Shown piece after piece: positions 2,278 through 10,434 of a stretch of DNA of 64,000 nt. Position 1 is the first letter of the stretch. Each line of letters begins with the position of its first letter. The DNA lies in contig JACEUQ010000001.1 in assembly GCA_024998815.1 (NCBI GenBank), positions 682,001-746,000 on the forward strand, read 5' to 3'. Made by a program: the position numbers and the translations under genes. Origin of the DNA: Opitutus sp. GTDB taxonomy: Bacteria > Verrucomicrobiota > Verrucomicrobiia > Opitutales > Opitutaceae. The notes under the pieces were generated by a model. The model was not told the DNA's origin. It saw nothing but the letters and a program-made list of their open reading frames with translations, and made no database searches.

Positions 2278-3156
2278 TTAACGAAGGAACTGCGTGATGC
2301 GCGGGATCGCCTCGGTATTGGCGTCCGCCAGCACATAGTGGCCGGCATCCTCTAGGTAGTAGCTTTGCGCCTGGGGCAGGCGCTTGCCCCACTCCTCGTA
2401 AAAATAGTCGTTAAAGCAGAAATCCCTTCCGCCCCACATGATGAGGGCGGGGTTGTTTTTAAAGTTCTTCAGGCCTGCCGCCGTATCGGTGAGCGTGCGC
2501 CAGGTCGGATGCGACGGCAGCATGGGAATATCCTTAACGAAGGCGTCCACCGCGACCCGGTTTGCCCACGAATTATAGGGGAGCAAAAACCCGCGTTTCT
2601 CGGCGGCGCTCAGTTTGCGGCGGTGCATCGACATCCACACGGCGGGGGCCGCGAAACCGTTGAGCCCACGCACCAGTGCGGAGCCGGGGAAACGGGTTTT
2701 GCACAGGGCGATGCGACTGGGGATGTGCGGCGAGGGAAACGCCCCGGTGTTGAGCACGACGAGTTTGCCGATGCGTTGGGGATAACGCGCCGCATAGCCA
2801 AAACCGATCGCCCCACCCCAATCATGCACAACTAAATGAATACGCTTAACCCCAAGGTGGGTGAGGAGCGCATCCACGTCCCCTATACGCGATTCCAGCG
2901 TGTACGGGTAGTCCTGGGGCTTTTCGGATAATCCCATGCCGATGTGGTCAGGCACAATGCAGCGCATGTTCGGCGCGACCGCCCTCACCAACTCCCGGTA
3001 ATAAAACGACCAGGTCGGATTACCGTGCAGCATGAGCACGGCCTCATCGCCGTCGCCACCCTCATCGAGGTAGCTCATGCGCGCGCCGCGCGGGGTCGCG
3101 AACGAGCGCGGCGTGAAAGGATAAAGGGGCTTAAGCCAGTCGGGTAGTGTTACCAT
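2278..3156 (-). CDS. oleB: Alpha/beta hydrolase, OleB-like (beta-lactone decarboxylase family)
   Basis: About 292 residues with the haloalkane-dehalogenase-type alpha/beta fold. The oxyanion motif HGNPTWSFYYR (from residue 44), the nucleophile elbow HDWGG (Asp112) and the C-terminal DAGHYVLAD with the catalytic His are all present. The LHGNP.WSFYYR and PDHIGMGLSEKP strings are typical of OleB, which decarboxylates cis-beta-lactones to cis-olefins in long-chain hydrocarbon synthesis. The gene overlaps the OleA-like gene, which supports this assignment over a true dehalogenase. ATG at 3156 is chosen; a TTG at 3177 would extend it into oleA by 28 bases. No oleC or oleD follows. Confidence 0.8.
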   Translation of the reverse strand: MVTLPDWLKPLYPFTPRSFATPRGARMSYLDEGGDGDEAVLMLHGNPTWSFYYRELVRAVAPNMRCIVPDHIGMGLSEKPQDYPYTLESRIGDVDALLTHLGVKRIHLVVHDWGGAIGFGYAARYPQRIGKLVVLNTGAFPSPHIPSRIALCKTRFPGSALVRGLNGFAAPAVWMSMHRRKLSAAEKRGFLLPYNSWANRVAVDAFVKDIPMLPSHPTWRTLTDTAAGLKNFKNNPALIMWGGRDFCFNDYFYEEWGKRLPQAQSYYLEDAGHYVLADANTEAIPRITQFLR

Positions 3157-4190
3157 TCGAGTGCGAGCATCAGACAATTTAGACCGCTGCCGATTCCGAG
3201 CAGCGCAACCTTGGTTCCGTCGGTCACCGCGCCTGCTTCAACCGCCTTGGCGAGCGTGGAGGGCAGCGCAACTGAACCGGTGTTACCCAGGGTTTCAAAC
3301 GTGGAAAAATCTTTGGCGAGATCCAGACCCAGCGCCTCATAAAGTTTGCGCCGATGCGTACTGCCAACCTGGTGACAGATAAACCGGTCCGCCGTGTTCG
3401 CATCGTAACCGGTTTCGGCGGTGAACGCATCCCAGGTGTCCTTCGCCAGCGCCAGACCCGCGGTGAGCAGAGCCTCGCTGTCGGTTTGCATGGCCAGCGC
3501 CTCGGCGCCGTGGTTGTCACCTTGGCAAAGCTCGCTGTGCACGGTAGCCGCGCGGGCGATACCACCCAGCAGGCGATGCGGGCTTGAGTCGCGAGGCAAA
3601 ACCGATTCGTGGCACACAACCGCACCCACCGCTCCCGAGCCAATGGTGAGATTGGCGAAAAACGGCTTGATGCCGTTTCGATCCAGCGGCGACTCCAGCA
3701 GCGTTTTGAGTGTCTGCTGGACAAGCGGGCCGCCGTTTTCGCCGGAGACGATTAGGGCGCATTTGATTTGTCCGCTCTCAATCAGACCCGCGGCGATGGT
3801 GAGCGAGTTGAGAAAACCCAGGCAGGCGTTCGACACATCGAAAATCTGGGCGCTGGCAGGCAGGCCGATCTTGCGGTGGGCAAAGGACGCGGTGGCCGGT
3901 TCCATCATATCGCGGCACACCGCACTGTGTATAAACAGCTCGACCTGCTCAGCACGCAGGCCGGACTTGGCCAGGGCCGCTTTGCCGGCAGCTGCGCTGG
4001 CGTCGGATGGACGCGTGCCAGCTGGCCAGACCCGGCGCTCACGAATGCCGGTCATCAACTCGAGGCGGCCAAAGGGCAGCTTCAGACGCTCGTAGAGCGG
4101 ACGCAGGCGCTCCTCGATGTCGGTCGTGGTCAGGACCTCGTCGGGCAAGGCGACGGCGAGGGATTCGATGCAGGTGTGGTTGAAACGCAT
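3150..4190 (-). CDS. oleA: OleA-like thiolase-fold acyl-CoA/ACP condensing enzyme
   Basis: 346 residues of the KAS III/thiolase fold. The catalytic Cys123 (SNACLGF), His273 (CHQVGSTHRR) and Asn303 (LGNTGS) form the usual triad. Glu97 in MMEPATAS aligns with the glutamate that OleA uses for head-to-head Claisen condensation, and the C-terminal LLGIGSGLNC is an OleA hallmark. The family joins two fatty acyl thioesters into a beta-keto acid. FabH is less likely because of these features and the OleB-like neighbour. It overlaps fabI by 1 base upstream (TGATG) and oleB by 7 bases downstream, so the genes are translationally coupled. OleC and OleD partners are absent from this window. Confidence 0.85.
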   Translation of the reverse strand: MRFNHTCIESLAVALPDEVLTTTDIEERLRPLYERLKLPFGRLELMTGIRERRVWPAGTRPSDASAAAGKAALAKSGLRAEQVELFIHSAVCRDMMEPATASFAHRKIGLPASAQIFDVSNACLGFLNSLTIAAGLIESGQIKCALIVSGENGGPLVQQTLKTLLESPLDRNGIKPFFANLTIGSGAVGAVVCHESVLPRDSSPHRLLGGIARAATVHSELCQGDNHGAEALAMQTDSEALLTAGLALAKDTWDAFTAETGYDANTADRFICHQVGSTHRRKLYEALGLDLAKDFSTFETLGNTGSVALPSTLAKAVEAGAVTDGTKVALLGIGSGLNCLMLALEW

Positions 4191-5008
4191 CAGGCTTTGG
4201 ACTCCATGCGCATGGCCAACCGCACGACCTCTTTGTCGAAGTAGTTACTGCCGAGACCGGCGTCGACGACGAGAGTGGTGCCATTGACGCCACTGCTACG
4301 CTCGCTGAGCAGGAAAACCGTGGTGTTGGCCACTTCCTGCGTACTCAGATTACGCTTACGGAAGGTGAGTTTTTCGGCGTAAAGATAACTTTCCAAATAG
4401 CCGGGGATGCCGGCCGAGGCGCTGGTTTTAAGCGGGCCGGAACCGACGACGTTGAAGCGCACCTCGCTGTGATCGCTGAATGATTTGGCTAAAAACCGGG
4501 AAGCTGACTCGAGGGCGGCCTTAATCGGGCCCATGTAGCCGTAGTTGTCGGGCGTCACCTGCAACGAGGAGATGCCGATGGTCACCACGGAGGCGTTTTT
4601 GACCAGCAGGGGCTTGAACGCGTTGGCCACCTCAACAAGCGAAAACGCCGAGATGGCGGTCGCCTGAAGGAAGTCCGCGCGCTTGGTTTCGTGAAACGGT
4701 TTAAACCCCTCGCTGTAGTTGGCGAAGGCGATCGAGTGGACGATGCCGTGGATCGCGTTAAACCCAGCGGCGGCGACGTCAGCGGCGAGGCGGGCGGCTG
4801 CGCCCTCCTGCTCCACGTCGCACACGAAAACCGGCTTGCCCGCCAAGGTGGTTTCCAAGGACGCCTTTCGGGCGGGACTGCGCACGCTGTAAAGCACGAC
4901 TGCGCCCTGCTCCTCCAGAGTTTTGGCGGTGAACCAGGCAACGCTCTTTTTGTTGGCGACACCCAGGACCACGAAGGTCTTGCCGGTGAGATTTAAGAAA
5001 TCACTCAT
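4190..5008 (-). CDS. fabI: Enoyl-ACP reductase, FabI type (divergent)
   Basis: 272 residues of the short-chain dehydrogenase fold, with the FabI-specific nucleotide-binding start VVLGVANKKSVAW and the Y-x6-K catalytic pair at Tyr156 and Lys163 (NYGYMGPIKAALE). VVGSGPLKTSASAGIPGY and the C-terminal TLVVDAGLG also fit. It would reduce trans-2-enoyl-ACP with NAD(P)H. The position equivalent to the usually conserved Tyr146 is Ile, so this may be a specialised paralogue. The start is ATG 5008, sharing one base with the fabZ stop; a GTG at 5011 adds one residue. It lies between fabZ and oleA in one operon. Confidence 0.87.
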   Translation of the reverse strand: MSDFLNLTGKTFVVLGVANKKSVAWFTAKTLEEQGAVVLYSVRSPARKASLETTLAGKPVFVCDVEQEGAAARLAADVAAAGFNAIHGIVHSIAFANYSEGFKPFHETKRADFLQATAISAFSLVEVANAFKPLLVKNASVVTIGISSLQVTPDNYGYMGPIKAALESASRFLAKSFSDHSEVRFNVVGSGPLKTSASAGIPGYLESYLYAEKLTFRKRNLSTQEVANTTVFLLSERSSGVNGTTLVVDAGLGSNYFDKEVVRLAMRMESKA

Positions 5009-5490
5009 CACTGCTGTTGCTGCTGCTGCTGTTGAGCTGCGGCGGCGCCACCCTCGGGCGTTTTCCAGGCCACGGCGAATTCCACTGTCAGCACCCGGGT
5101 GCCATCGGCCTTTTTGATCGCACCGGTCATCATGGTGAAGGCGCCGACCACTTCCTTTTTCTTCACCTCGATGAGAATCGTGTCACCGGGGTAAATGGGG
5201 CTGCGGAAGCGCACATCGGCTATCTTGGCCAAAAGCGGCACGCCTTCGCCGGGTTTGGCACCCGCGGCCAGCGCCTGCTTGGCCATGAACAAGGCGCCGG
5301 TTTGAAACACCGATTCGCACAGCAGAACGCCGGGCGTGATGGGTGCCGAGGGGTAGTGGCCCTTGTAGAAATCTTCCTCGGCGCGCCAGGTGCGGCGGGC
5401 GGTGAGGCTGTCGGCGGTTTCGGCGACGATATCGTCGACAAAAAGAAAGGGTGGCCGGTGCGGGATGAGGTCGGTGACGGCGGTGGACAT
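5008..5490 (-). CDS. fabZ: 3-hydroxyacyl-ACP dehydratase, FabZ-like, with a polyglutamine tail
   Basis: 160 residues with the hot-dog fold of FabZ. The N-terminal LIPHRPPFLFVDDIV and the active-site segment FYKGHYPSAPITPGVLLCES contain catalytic His45 and Glu59. It would dehydrate 3-hydroxyacyl-ACP, the step before FabI. The start ATG 5490 is chosen because the family begins here and the longer frame to 5640 runs into the GT61 gene. The last residues are AAAA followed by eight Gln, written mostly as CAG repeats, which is unusual for FabZ. It heads the fabZ-fabI-oleA-oleB operon. Confidence 0.87.
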   Translation of the reverse strand: MSTAVTDLIPHRPPFLFVDDIVAETADSLTARRTWRAEEDFYKGHYPSAPITPGVLLCESVFQTGALFMAKQALAAGAKPGEGVPLLAKIADVRFRSPIYPGDTILIEVKKKEVVGAFTMMTGAIKKADGTRVLTVEFAVAWKTPEGGAAAAQQQQQQQQ

Positions 5491-8070: not shown

Positions 8071-10326
8071 CTACCCGCCCGAAGGCGCACCGAGAGTGTT
8101 TTTTTGCGCGAGATCCTTACAGCCCTTGAGGTCGAGTTTGCCTGTGCCCAAGACAGGGATCTGGTCGACGCGCACCACCACCTTCGGCACCCACAGATTC
8201 GGCAAACCGGCGGCGGCGAGCGTTACCCTCACCCGCTCCACCGTGAGCTCGTCGCTGGTGGTAAGGATCACGAGTTGTTCTCCCTTGTTCGCGTCGGCCA
8301 CCCCGATGACAACCAGCGCATAACCCTCGTCCTGGTTGAGCGCGAAGCCCTCGATCAGGGCCTGCTCAACGTTGCCATGTGGCACCATCTCGCCGGCAAT
8401 TTTAGAAAAACGCGAAAGGCGCCCCTCGATAAAAAGAAAACCGTCTTCATCGAAGCGCCCGAGGTCACCGGTCAGGTACCAGCCGTCGTGAAACACCTCA
8501 GCGGTTTTCTTCGGGTTATCGAGGTAGCCGCGAAACAGGTTTGCCCCGCGGAACGCCACCACACCGGTCGCGCCCAGAGGCAATTGCTCCAGCGTCTCGG
8601 GGTTAAACACTCGGGCGGTCATGCCGGCCATCATGCGCCCGACCGAGCCAAAGCGCTTGCCCTGCTGCGCGGCTGCGGTGTCGGTCGGCAACAGGGGGTC
8701 AGGCTGGTTCACATTGGTTGCCGGCGAGGCCTCCGTCATCCCATAGCCTTGGAGAACGCTGAGGTGAAACTTACCCAGAAATCCCTCGTACAGGTCGATC
8801 GGTAAGCGCTCGGCGCCGGAAACAAGAATCTCCAGCGAACGAAGGTCGGCGGGCACCGCTTTTTTTAAGATGGGGCGCATAAACGTGGGGGCGCCCACCA
8901 TCACGCTGACCGCTTCCTCGCGAATGGCATCGATGATCTTTTGGGTTTCCAGCGGACTGGGAACCGACACCGAGCGGCAACCGCGCAGCAGCGGGTACCA
9001 CATGTTCACCGTGAAGCCGAAACTGTGGAAAACCGGCAGGCAGCTCAACATCACGGCGGAGGGCGGAAACAGGGAGAGCGTGGAAAATTGCCAGCAGTTG
9101 GCCAAAATGTTGCGATGGCTCAGCACCACACCCTTGGGCTCGCCCGAGGTGCCGCTGGTAAAGAGCAGGCCCGCCTCTTCGGTGTCGCCGCGATCCGGCA
9201 AACGCAGGAGCCAAGGCAGACATTGGTTGGGCAATATCATGGCGGCCAAATACCAGGGCAACAGCGCGCGCTTGCCGCCGATCTGTTGAAACACCGAGGT
9301 TAAATCCAGCGTGGATTCGGGCCACGGAAAGCCGGTGATTTTCGCCCGCATCGCGTCGGCGGAGACGATCGTTTTTAGGCCCGCCATACGCAGGCTCGCC
9401 TCGATGGCGGCGCGTCCGGCTGTGAAATTGAGGTTCACCGGAATCTTGCCCGCACAGAGCACCGCAAGGTTGGCGATGGTCGCTCCAGCCCCCGGCGGCA
9501 GCACGATGCCCACGCGTCGTTCCGGCACGTTCCGGCGCAAATGAACAGACAGGGCAGCCGCGGCAGCAAAGAGCTGGGCCGCGGTCAACTCACGACGAGC
9601 CGCCGTGCGATCAACCATGACCACCGAACGCGGGTTACGGCCCAGGCGGCGAACGATCTCGTTACCCAGATTGCGTTTCAATTGCGGCCGCTCGTCATAG
9701 GCCGCGCAGCCCAGGTCCAATAGCGCATGGCGCACTTCACCCGCCTGCGCGCGCTCGGCGGGAATCGGCTCGCCCCAGGCCACACAGACGGCAGAACGCA
9801 TGAGCCGCGGTGATTTAAAAAGATACTTGTTATCTGAAAACGAAAACACCGAGCCCCAGAGGCCATCGTGCGCCACGGGAATGACGGGCACCCCGGCTTT
9901 ACGAGCCATTAACTCAAAGCCCCGTTCCAACTTCATGAGTTGCCCTGTGCGCGAAATGCCGCCCTCAGGGAAAACCAGGACCAATTCTCCTGCTTGGAGC
10001 GCCAAGGTGACGCGGCGAACCGTTTCGAGCGCACTGGTCGGGGAGACCGGGATGGTTCCGGTGAGCTGAAAAACCAAACGGAAAAACCAGCTTTGTTTTA
10101 GGAATGTCTCATGCCCCACGTAGCGAATGGGCCGCGGGCAGGCCACCTGCAGCACGATGACGTCCATGTAGGACAGGTGGTTGGCGACGATGAGCGCCCC
10201 ACCCGCCTGCGGCACGCGCTCGGCGTTGAGCACGCGGATGCGGTAAAGGAACCGGCAGGCTACGGCTACCGGCCATGCCAACCAGCGGCTCACATGCGCT
10301 GGGGGAAACAAAGCGGTTTCATCCAT
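8071..10326 (-). CDS. Fused PlsC-type acyltransferase / AMP-dependent acyl ligase (Aas-like)
   Basis: 751 residues in two domains. Residues ~1-210 form a PlsC acyltransferase with the HX4D motif (NHLSYMD) and FPEGGISRTG. Residues ~240-750 form an ANL adenylating enzyme with LLFTSGTSGEPKGVVLSHRN, GYGMTEASP, YLTGDLGRFDEDGF and the C-terminal lysine in GTGKLDLK. This order matches Aas, which re-acylates lysophospholipids with ACP-bound acyl chains. I chose ATG 10326 over the longer TTG frame at 10350. Substrate is uncertain. It is near, but not in, the ole operon; the PlsC fusion makes an OleC role unlikely. Confidence 0.85.
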   Translation of the reverse strand: MDETALFPPAHVSRWLAWPVAVACRFLYRIRVLNAERVPQAGGALIVANHLSYMDVIVLQVACPRPIRYVGHETFLKQSWFFRLVFQLTGTIPVSPTSALETVRRVTLALQAGELVLVFPEGGISRTGQLMKLERGFELMARKAGVPVIPVAHDGLWGSVFSFSDNKYLFKSPRLMRSAVCVAWGEPIPAERAQAGEVRHALLDLGCAAYDERPQLKRNLGNEIVRRLGRNPRSVVMVDRTAARRELTAAQLFAAAAALSVHLRRNVPERRVGIVLPPGAGATIANLAVLCAGKIPVNLNFTAGRAAIEASLRMAGLKTIVSADAMRAKITGFPWPESTLDLTSVFQQIGGKRALLPWYLAAMILPNQCLPWLLRLPDRGDTEEAGLLFTSGTSGEPKGVVLSHRNILANCWQFSTLSLFPPSAVMLSCLPVFHSFGFTVNMWYPLLRGCRSVSVPSPLETQKIIDAIREEAVSVMVGAPTFMRPILKKAVPADLRSLEILVSGAERLPIDLYEGFLGKFHLSVLQGYGMTEASPATNVNQPDPLLPTDTAAAQQGKRFGSVGRMMAGMTARVFNPETLEQLPLGATGVVAFRGANLFRGYLDNPKKTAEVFHDGWYLTGDLGRFDEDGFLFIEGRLSRFSKIAGEMVPHGNVEQALIEGFALNQDEGYALVVIGVADANKGEQLVILTTSDELTVERVRVTLAAAGLPNLWVPKVVVRVDQIPVLGTGKLDLKGCKDLAQKNTLGAPSGG

Positions 10327-10434
10327 GTGATTAAAGGGGGGGGTAAACAAAACCGGTGCGACGCGGGGACTGGAGTTAAATCAGGCTGAGGATCGGCGGT
10401 GTGTTAAGTGGTGGCGGATCAGGATGCGAAGCGT

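Follow-up and report, generated by a model that had tools for sequence, protein, structure and literature searches.

Head-to-head olefin synthesis is known elsewhere as a four-enzyme route, in which OleA performs the condensation, OleD the reduction, OleC the closure of a lactone and OleB the decarboxylation. In other bacteria, precursors for ole are known to come from the products of pfa genes (PMC6463001, PMC3098273); the former paper describes a pfa-ole linkage in which OleA probably takes its chains from the Pfa synthase, and in the latter 44 of 80 genomes had secondary lipid synthases alongside ole genes. On the strength of these reports, precursor supply to ole by partner genes is an established principle. 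The occurrence of ole genes in Verrucomicrobiota has likewise been published (PMC5673642, PMC7158056 and PMC10176705). Here we describe a stretch of 64,000 nucleotides from Opitutus sp. of the order Opitutales (contig JACEUQ010000001.1, positions 682,001 to 746,000; hereafter the window), in which genes for a dehydratase and an enoyl reductase of fatty acid synthesis stand in one operon with oleA and oleB. Judging from its gene complement, the genome very probably encodes a complete OleABCD pathway, split over two loci, and the FabZ-FabI pair is likely to be functionally tied to it.

The four minus-strand genes are tightly packed between positions 5490 and 2278, in the order fabZ, fabI, oleA, oleB (Table 1). 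The overlap between fabZ and fabI is 1 or 4 nt, depending on the start codon chosen, that between fabI and oleA is 1 nt, and that between oleA and oleB is 7 nt (ATGGTAA), rising to 28 nt should oleB start at the upstream TTG (3177). Scanning for promoters and terminators gave nothing clearly above shuffled sequences. Coordinates, Pfam domains and catalytic residues confirm the four overlapping genes with OleA-type and OleB-type enzymes that had been described from the DNA alone (the sequence-only reading). CAA/CAG repeats at window positions 5008-5040 encode a glutamine run at the C-terminus of FabZ, directly before the fabI start.

Table 1. Genes of the operon in the window, in order of transcription
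Feature	Position	Strand	Start codon, domains and models
fabZ-like 3-hydroxyacyl-thioester dehydratase	5008..5490	-	ATG 5490, open reading frame extendable to 5640; Pfam FabA domain
fabI-like enoyl-thioester reductase, distinct subfamily	4190..5011	-	GTG 5011 or ATG 5008; Pfam adh_short_C2
oleA, thiolase-fold head-to-head condensing enzyme	3150..4190	-	Pfam KAS III C-terminal domain and thiolase N domain; NF006720
oleB-like alpha/beta hydrolase, haloalkane dehalogenase type	2278..3177	-	TTG 3177 or, more likely, ATG 3156; Abhydrolase_1

Assigned by homology, the condensing enzyme is a true OleA and not a FabH. It matched the NCBIfam model NF006720 with 436.6 bits (cut-off 285), and gave 92-112 bits with the general FabH models, under their cut-offs. 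Its closest solved relatives in the PDB were OleA entries, with an E-value of 2.2e-61 for 3row, the OleA of Xanthomonas campestris; among the remaining KAS III entries the best E-value was 1.1e-22. Glu97, Cys123, His273 and Asn303 of the window protein aligned with the Glu, Cys, His and Asn of the X. campestris enzyme, presumably Glu117, Cys143, His285 and Asn315 in its own numbering, the Glu being the residue that reaches the active site of the partner. Cys, His and Asn were invariant in 114 aligned rows, and Glu97 was replaced in one row alone, the KAS III paralogue L162, which has Met; the rows of this and the other residue alignments include the window and some loci of the same genome represented twice, and are not all independent. 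A maximum likelihood tree was built from 34 rows, 29 on the OleA side, including X. campestris OleA, and five KAS III paralogues drawn from the same genome and three relatives. A branch with 100/100 support parted the five paralogues from the window and X. campestris OleA proteins, and the window protein was thus not placed with FabH. Two rows, that of X. campestris and one of the paralogues, stand on long branches, for which the tree program gives a warning. L160, a KAS III paralogue of the same genome, exceeded the FabH cut-offs. The score against NF006720, the best solved match and the separation in the tree led us to reject misannotation of a FabH as OleA, and the four residues named in the sequence-only reading proved to be correctly placed.

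In OleB, Asp119 was found in 104/104 rows, and Asp252 and His280 in 103, the remaining row having a gap; we take these three to be the catalytic triad of the haloalkane-dehalogenase fold. The NCBIfam models matched by OleB were solely those of dehalogenases and other hydrolases, all below cut-off. Retention of the triad residues, and adjacency of oleB to oleA in all 80 loci of the contig scan described below, bear out its identity as an OleB-type hydrolase.

The statement that the operon lacks oleC and oleD holds for the operon and fails for the genome, a search of which located both genes on a second contig, C2, while oleA and oleB are on C1. A single oleC over the family cut-off lies at C2:592035-594032 (OleC family search; open reading frame (ORF) G000:C2:592023-594062). 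Its product matched NF006754 first, with 631 bits against a cut-off of 478, then two olefin beta-lactone synthetase models, and fell below the cut-offs of 900 and 850 of the Xanthomonas- and Shewanella-type models. The oleD ORF overlaps oleC by 4 nt, the two forming a second unit, and its best match was NF042422 (OleD 2-alkyl-3-oxoalkanoate reductase), at 389.8 bits against a cut-off of 580. An in-frame repeat-rich insert (L029:9309-9511) lies between two conserved parts of this oleC, which encodes 680 aa; oleC frames are about 540-600 aa in many relatives and 658-698 aa in G007, G013 and G016. An ORF read as reverse transcriptase/maturase-like (L029:11544-13637) is close to oleD, and the start of the opposite-strand ORF at these coordinates recurs at L158:13229-14365, which makes a repeated mobile element likely.

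The same division of the pathway was observed in relatives. The set comprised the Opitutus genome and 36 relatives, with OleA orthologues counted at E <= 1e-100, as a threshold of E 0.001 would count FabH too. OleA was found in 34 of these 37 genomes, OleC in the same 34 and OleD in 33, the one miss being a 67% complete genome (G023); G027, G029 and G030 had neither OleA, OleC and OleD nor the operon-type FabI. The oleC gene was on another contig than oleA in 29 of the 34 genomes and at least 25 kb from it in the other five (G010, G015, G016, G017 and G035). Of the 33 genomes with both genes, 23 have oleC adjacent to oleD, with a gap of no more than about 620 nt; in the other 10 the two were apart or on different contigs. 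No oleC or oleD was found near oleA in 99 loci searched directly (L030-L128), the lone weak OleC match (28%, in L049) falling on an Aas-like gene. We therefore rejected absence of OleC and OleD from the pathway, as both are encoded on the second contig and occur in nearly all OleA-bearing relatives. The sequence-only reading had left room for OleC and OleD encoded elsewhere, and this option is borne out by the NF006754 match and the overlapping oleD. Its other proposals, that dehydratase and enoyl reductase replace OleC and OleD and that a ketone or beta-lactone-derived product is released, found no support: since OleC accompanies OleA in 34/34 genomes and OleD in 33/34, FabZ and FabI are no stand-in for them. 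An ordinary ole cluster divided by rearrangement is right as to the division, which was seen in all 34 genomes, and wrong as to neighbouring oleC or oleD genes.

To follow the gene order, contigs were scanned for the operon, and the best 80 of 131 loci, from records mostly named Opitutaceae, Opitutus or Verrucomicrobia, were compared; some belong to genomes of the 37-genome set (L049 and G012, for example), so the two sets are not independent. The order fabZ-fabI-oleA-oleB was present in 74 of the 80 loci, and therefore the arrangement is not due to chance. The contig ended in or just before fabI in four of the other loci and at oleA in one; in the sixth, L128, the 2.9 kb upstream of oleA contained neither fabZ nor fabI. 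The oleA and oleB matches overlapped in 52 of the 80. Cultured relatives with the operon include those of the records named Ereboglobus sp. PH5-10 and Cephaloticoccus capnophilus CV41 (loci L124 and L127). An oleABCD operon has been reported in Opitutae genomes in a paper that names Tous-C4FEB (PMC5673642); the locus from that genome (L125) instead shows fabZ-fabI-oleA-oleB. One record named Akkermansia muciniphila (L095) carries an Opitutaceae-type operon with an OleA 81% identical to that of the window, and is probably a mislabelled metagenome bin.

FabZ gave its best NCBIfam match to NF000582, yet at 93 bits it stayed below the cut-off of 113, and we therefore call it FabZ-like. Its catalytic His and Glu are kept (His95 and Glu109 in the numbering of the 210-aa ORF, 98/98 rows). 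FabI scored 169.6 bits with the best FabI model, against a cut-off of 362. Tyr157, Met160 and Lys164 were present in 106/106 rows, so that the Tyr-(x6)-Lys catalytic pair is kept. In an alignment to solved FabI structures, Ile147 took the place of an active-site Tyr that precedes the catalytic one by ten residues; Ile147 was found in 105/106 rows, and the lone Tyr belongs to a generic FabI of G118. The substitution and the score below cut-off are the reasons for the label FabI-like, and by these sequence characters the operon protein is a distinct subfamily. The genome also encodes a full-length FabV over its cut-off, which makes the operon FabI a second enoyl reductase and unlikely, on gene content, to be the only housekeeping one. 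FabV was found in 34 of the 37 genomes, including G027, G029 and G030, with no match in G022, G028 and G035. FabK was over its cut-off in none of the 37, with weaker matches of 99-130 bits in G015, G020 and G026. Elsewhere in the Opitutus genome (L156:9882-12190), a FabA-domain protein of 321 aa is followed by a FabF/FabB-type ketosynthase below the NCBIfam cut-offs.

In the 37-genome set, one FabI match per genome (E <= 1e-15) was obtained in 34 genomes, exactly those with OleA. Operon-type FabZ (E <= 1e-24) was found in 33 of these 34 and in one of the other three; LpxC-FabZ fusions probably account for some weaker matches, which lie in frames of about 430-500 aa. The comparison was extended to 145 genomes of the phylum, each at least 85% complete, with OleA counted at E <= 1e-30. 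OleA was present in 33 and the FabI subfamily in 30, namely 29 of the 33 genomes with OleA and one of the 112 without (G138), giving a Fisher p of 4e-25, uncorrected for relatedness. The subfamily was delimited at 48% identity or more (E <= 1e-77), a line set after the gap had been seen; eight further matches at 32-37% identity (E 1e-31 to 1e-40), one of them in the OleA genome G118, were treated as generic FabI and not counted. The order contributes 23 OleA genomes, of which 21 carry oleA and fabI side by side. Outside it, the subfamily occurs in 6 of 10 OleA genomes and in 0 of 111 others. In one of these six, G115, oleA and fabI are about 1 Mb apart on a single contig, and in the other five fabI is on a different contig, none being found in the 1.8-8 kb read upstream of oleA. 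FabI thus accompanies OleA even in genomes that keep the two genes apart, and the link between FabZ/FabI and ole remarked on in the sequence-only reading not only holds but reaches beyond the operon. The fabZ and fabI genes remain paired in G073, G081, G138 and G034, although oleA is elsewhere or absent. The FabI-bearing genomes fall into three supported groups of the OleA tree: the order; G144, G115 and G112; and G136, G159 and G150, with which G162 groups, yet without the FabI subfamily. One early gain of the FabI link, followed by descent and loss, is possible on this pattern.

We also compared the distribution of Pfa synthases. No PfaA over cut-off was found in the Opitutus genome, where the matches lie in frames of 272-458 aa, and the presence of a Pfa synthase there was rejected. 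With two candidates scored per genome, PfaA was over cut-off in 2 of the 145 phylum genomes, G079 and G156, which belong to one family and count as one evolutionary instance; both have an OleA at 39% identity and lack the FabI subfamily. In G079, oleA adjoins a 2322-aa ORF (L146:8611-15579), read as ketosynthase-like at its start, and the PfaA-scoring frame is the next one after it, about 7 kb from oleA and outside locus L146. FabZ-FabI might do the work of the Pfa synthase as separate type II enzymes, a dehydratase/isomerase and an enoyl reductase of a dedicated line that builds special, perhaps polyunsaturated, chains for OleA to take directly from the carrier protein. The proposal would agree with the presence of OleA, and the lack of the FabI subfamily, in both genomes of the phylum sample whose PfaA is over cut-off; we regard it as doubtful. 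If true, it would provide a route to long polyunsaturated hydrocarbons other than Pfa. Sukovich and colleagues, whose 2010 survey is cited as the one that covered Verrucomicrobia, reportedly described an Opitutaceae strain with a polyunsaturated C31 olefin, a point that bears on this proposal only.

Operon order, co-distribution and chemistry together lead us to favour substrate supply, by a modest degree, as the nature of the tie between FabZ-FabI and the pathway. The pair is placed before OleA because both enzymes use acyl thioesters, whereas the intermediates from OleA to OleB are free acids or a lactone. FabZ and FabI would finish elongation cycles on acyl chains upstream of OleA, beside the general FabV. 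OleA would then condense a pair of fatty acyl thioesters into a 2-alkyl-3-oxo acid, which OleD would reduce; OleC would close the beta-lactone, and OleB would split off CO2 to yield an internal olefin. The whole scheme, in which OleABCD is complete but split and the linked FabZ-FabI pair shapes the acyl chains that OleA uses, is with similar reserve our preferred account.

The main competitor, which we consider unlikely though not negligible, is that FabZ and FabI are nothing more than spare enzymes of ordinary fatty acid synthesis, which came to lie in the oleAB operon through historical accident and work for membrane lipids in general. Their catalytic residues are kept, and several observations that weigh against a supply role speak for such a use. 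The operon contains no FabF-type synthase, ketoreductase or acyl carrier protein and is not a full elongation module. G022, G028 and G035 have OleA and the operon-type FabI without a FabV match, so that FabI may serve general synthesis there; G138 keeps fabZ-fabI with no OleA match at E <= 1e-30, so that the pair has a use without OleA. The correspondence is also imperfect in other genomes: G031 has OleA and operon-type FabI without operon-type FabZ, G027 has operon-type FabZ without OleA, and G118 and G162 have OleA with neither the FabI subfamily nor a PfaA over cut-off. G018, G161 and G115 combine OleA and the FabI subfamily with large synthases that match PfaA without reaching its cut-off, so both kinds of supply may coexist. 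Finally, the OleA tree gives no supported joining of the three FabI-bearing groups, and much of the co-distribution could be the result of common ancestry. Against spare copies stand the co-distribution beyond the order, in genomes that keep the genes apart, the joint absence of OleA and FabI from G027, G029 and G030, which keep FabV, and the Tyr-to-Ile change specific to the subfamily.

Two other accounts fare worse. FabZ and FabI might act after OleA, together with a ketoreductase, on an unhydrolysed 2-alkyl-3-oxoacyl thioester, giving a saturated alpha-branched acid in a cell that makes both olefins and branched acids. The shared operon and the one active-site position that differs from standard FabI are compatible with this; OleB in the operon and OleC and OleD in the genome point instead to olefins, and the OleA product is described in PMC6463001 as a free beta-keto acid, so we consider it very improbable. 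Least credible is an operon that makes ketones or runs a curtailed Ole route lacking OleC and OleD. It draws on their absence from the operon and from the 99 oleA loci, and is contradicted by their presence elsewhere in this genome and in the OleA-bearing relatives.

The new point, beside the published verrucomicrobial ole genes, is that the olefin pathway keeps with it the fatty-acid-building pair FabZ-FabI. Among the open-access literature matches listed, no title or abstract ties such a pair to ole genes. If the tie is functional, FabZ and FabI would be the enzymes that select acyl chains for conversion to membrane hydrocarbons in cells lacking a Pfa synthase, and a testable role would be at hand for the FabI subfamily marked by the Tyr-to-Ile change. 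The homologues in PMC7064751 were chosen by flanking oleCD. Surveys that require oleCD beside oleA could undercount the split arrangement, although Opitutae or Verrucomicrobia do appear in the two surveys consulted.

Upstream of the operon on the same strand, beyond genes for a GT61 glycosyltransferase and an RhlE-like helicase, the window encodes an Aas-like fused acyltransferase/acyl-ACP (acyl carrier protein) synthetase (8071-10350). It was rejected as an operon partner, as such a gene was near ole in one of the 80 loci (L049).

Compared with housekeeping FabI and FabZ, the operon proteins share family and catalytic residues; they differ in that FabI has Ile147 for Tyr and coexists with FabV, and both stay below the NCBIfam cut-offs shown. 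The pfa-ole linkage of Shewanella, Photobacterium and Geobacter (PMC6463001, PMC3098273 and PMC4882568) is similar in that chain-building genes with ole supply, or may supply, OleA; in Opitutus, where no PfaA is over cut-off, the partners are instead free-standing FabZ and FabI of the type II fatty acid synthesis kind. With the OleABCD systems of Xanthomonas, Shewanella and Micrococcus, the Opitutus genome shares all four enzyme types, and its OleA has the Cys, His and Asn and the extra Glu. Unlike the contiguous OleABCD arrangement, Opitutus has oleA-oleB and oleC-oleD on different contigs, an OleC with an in-frame repeat insert, and fabZ and fabI preceding oleA.

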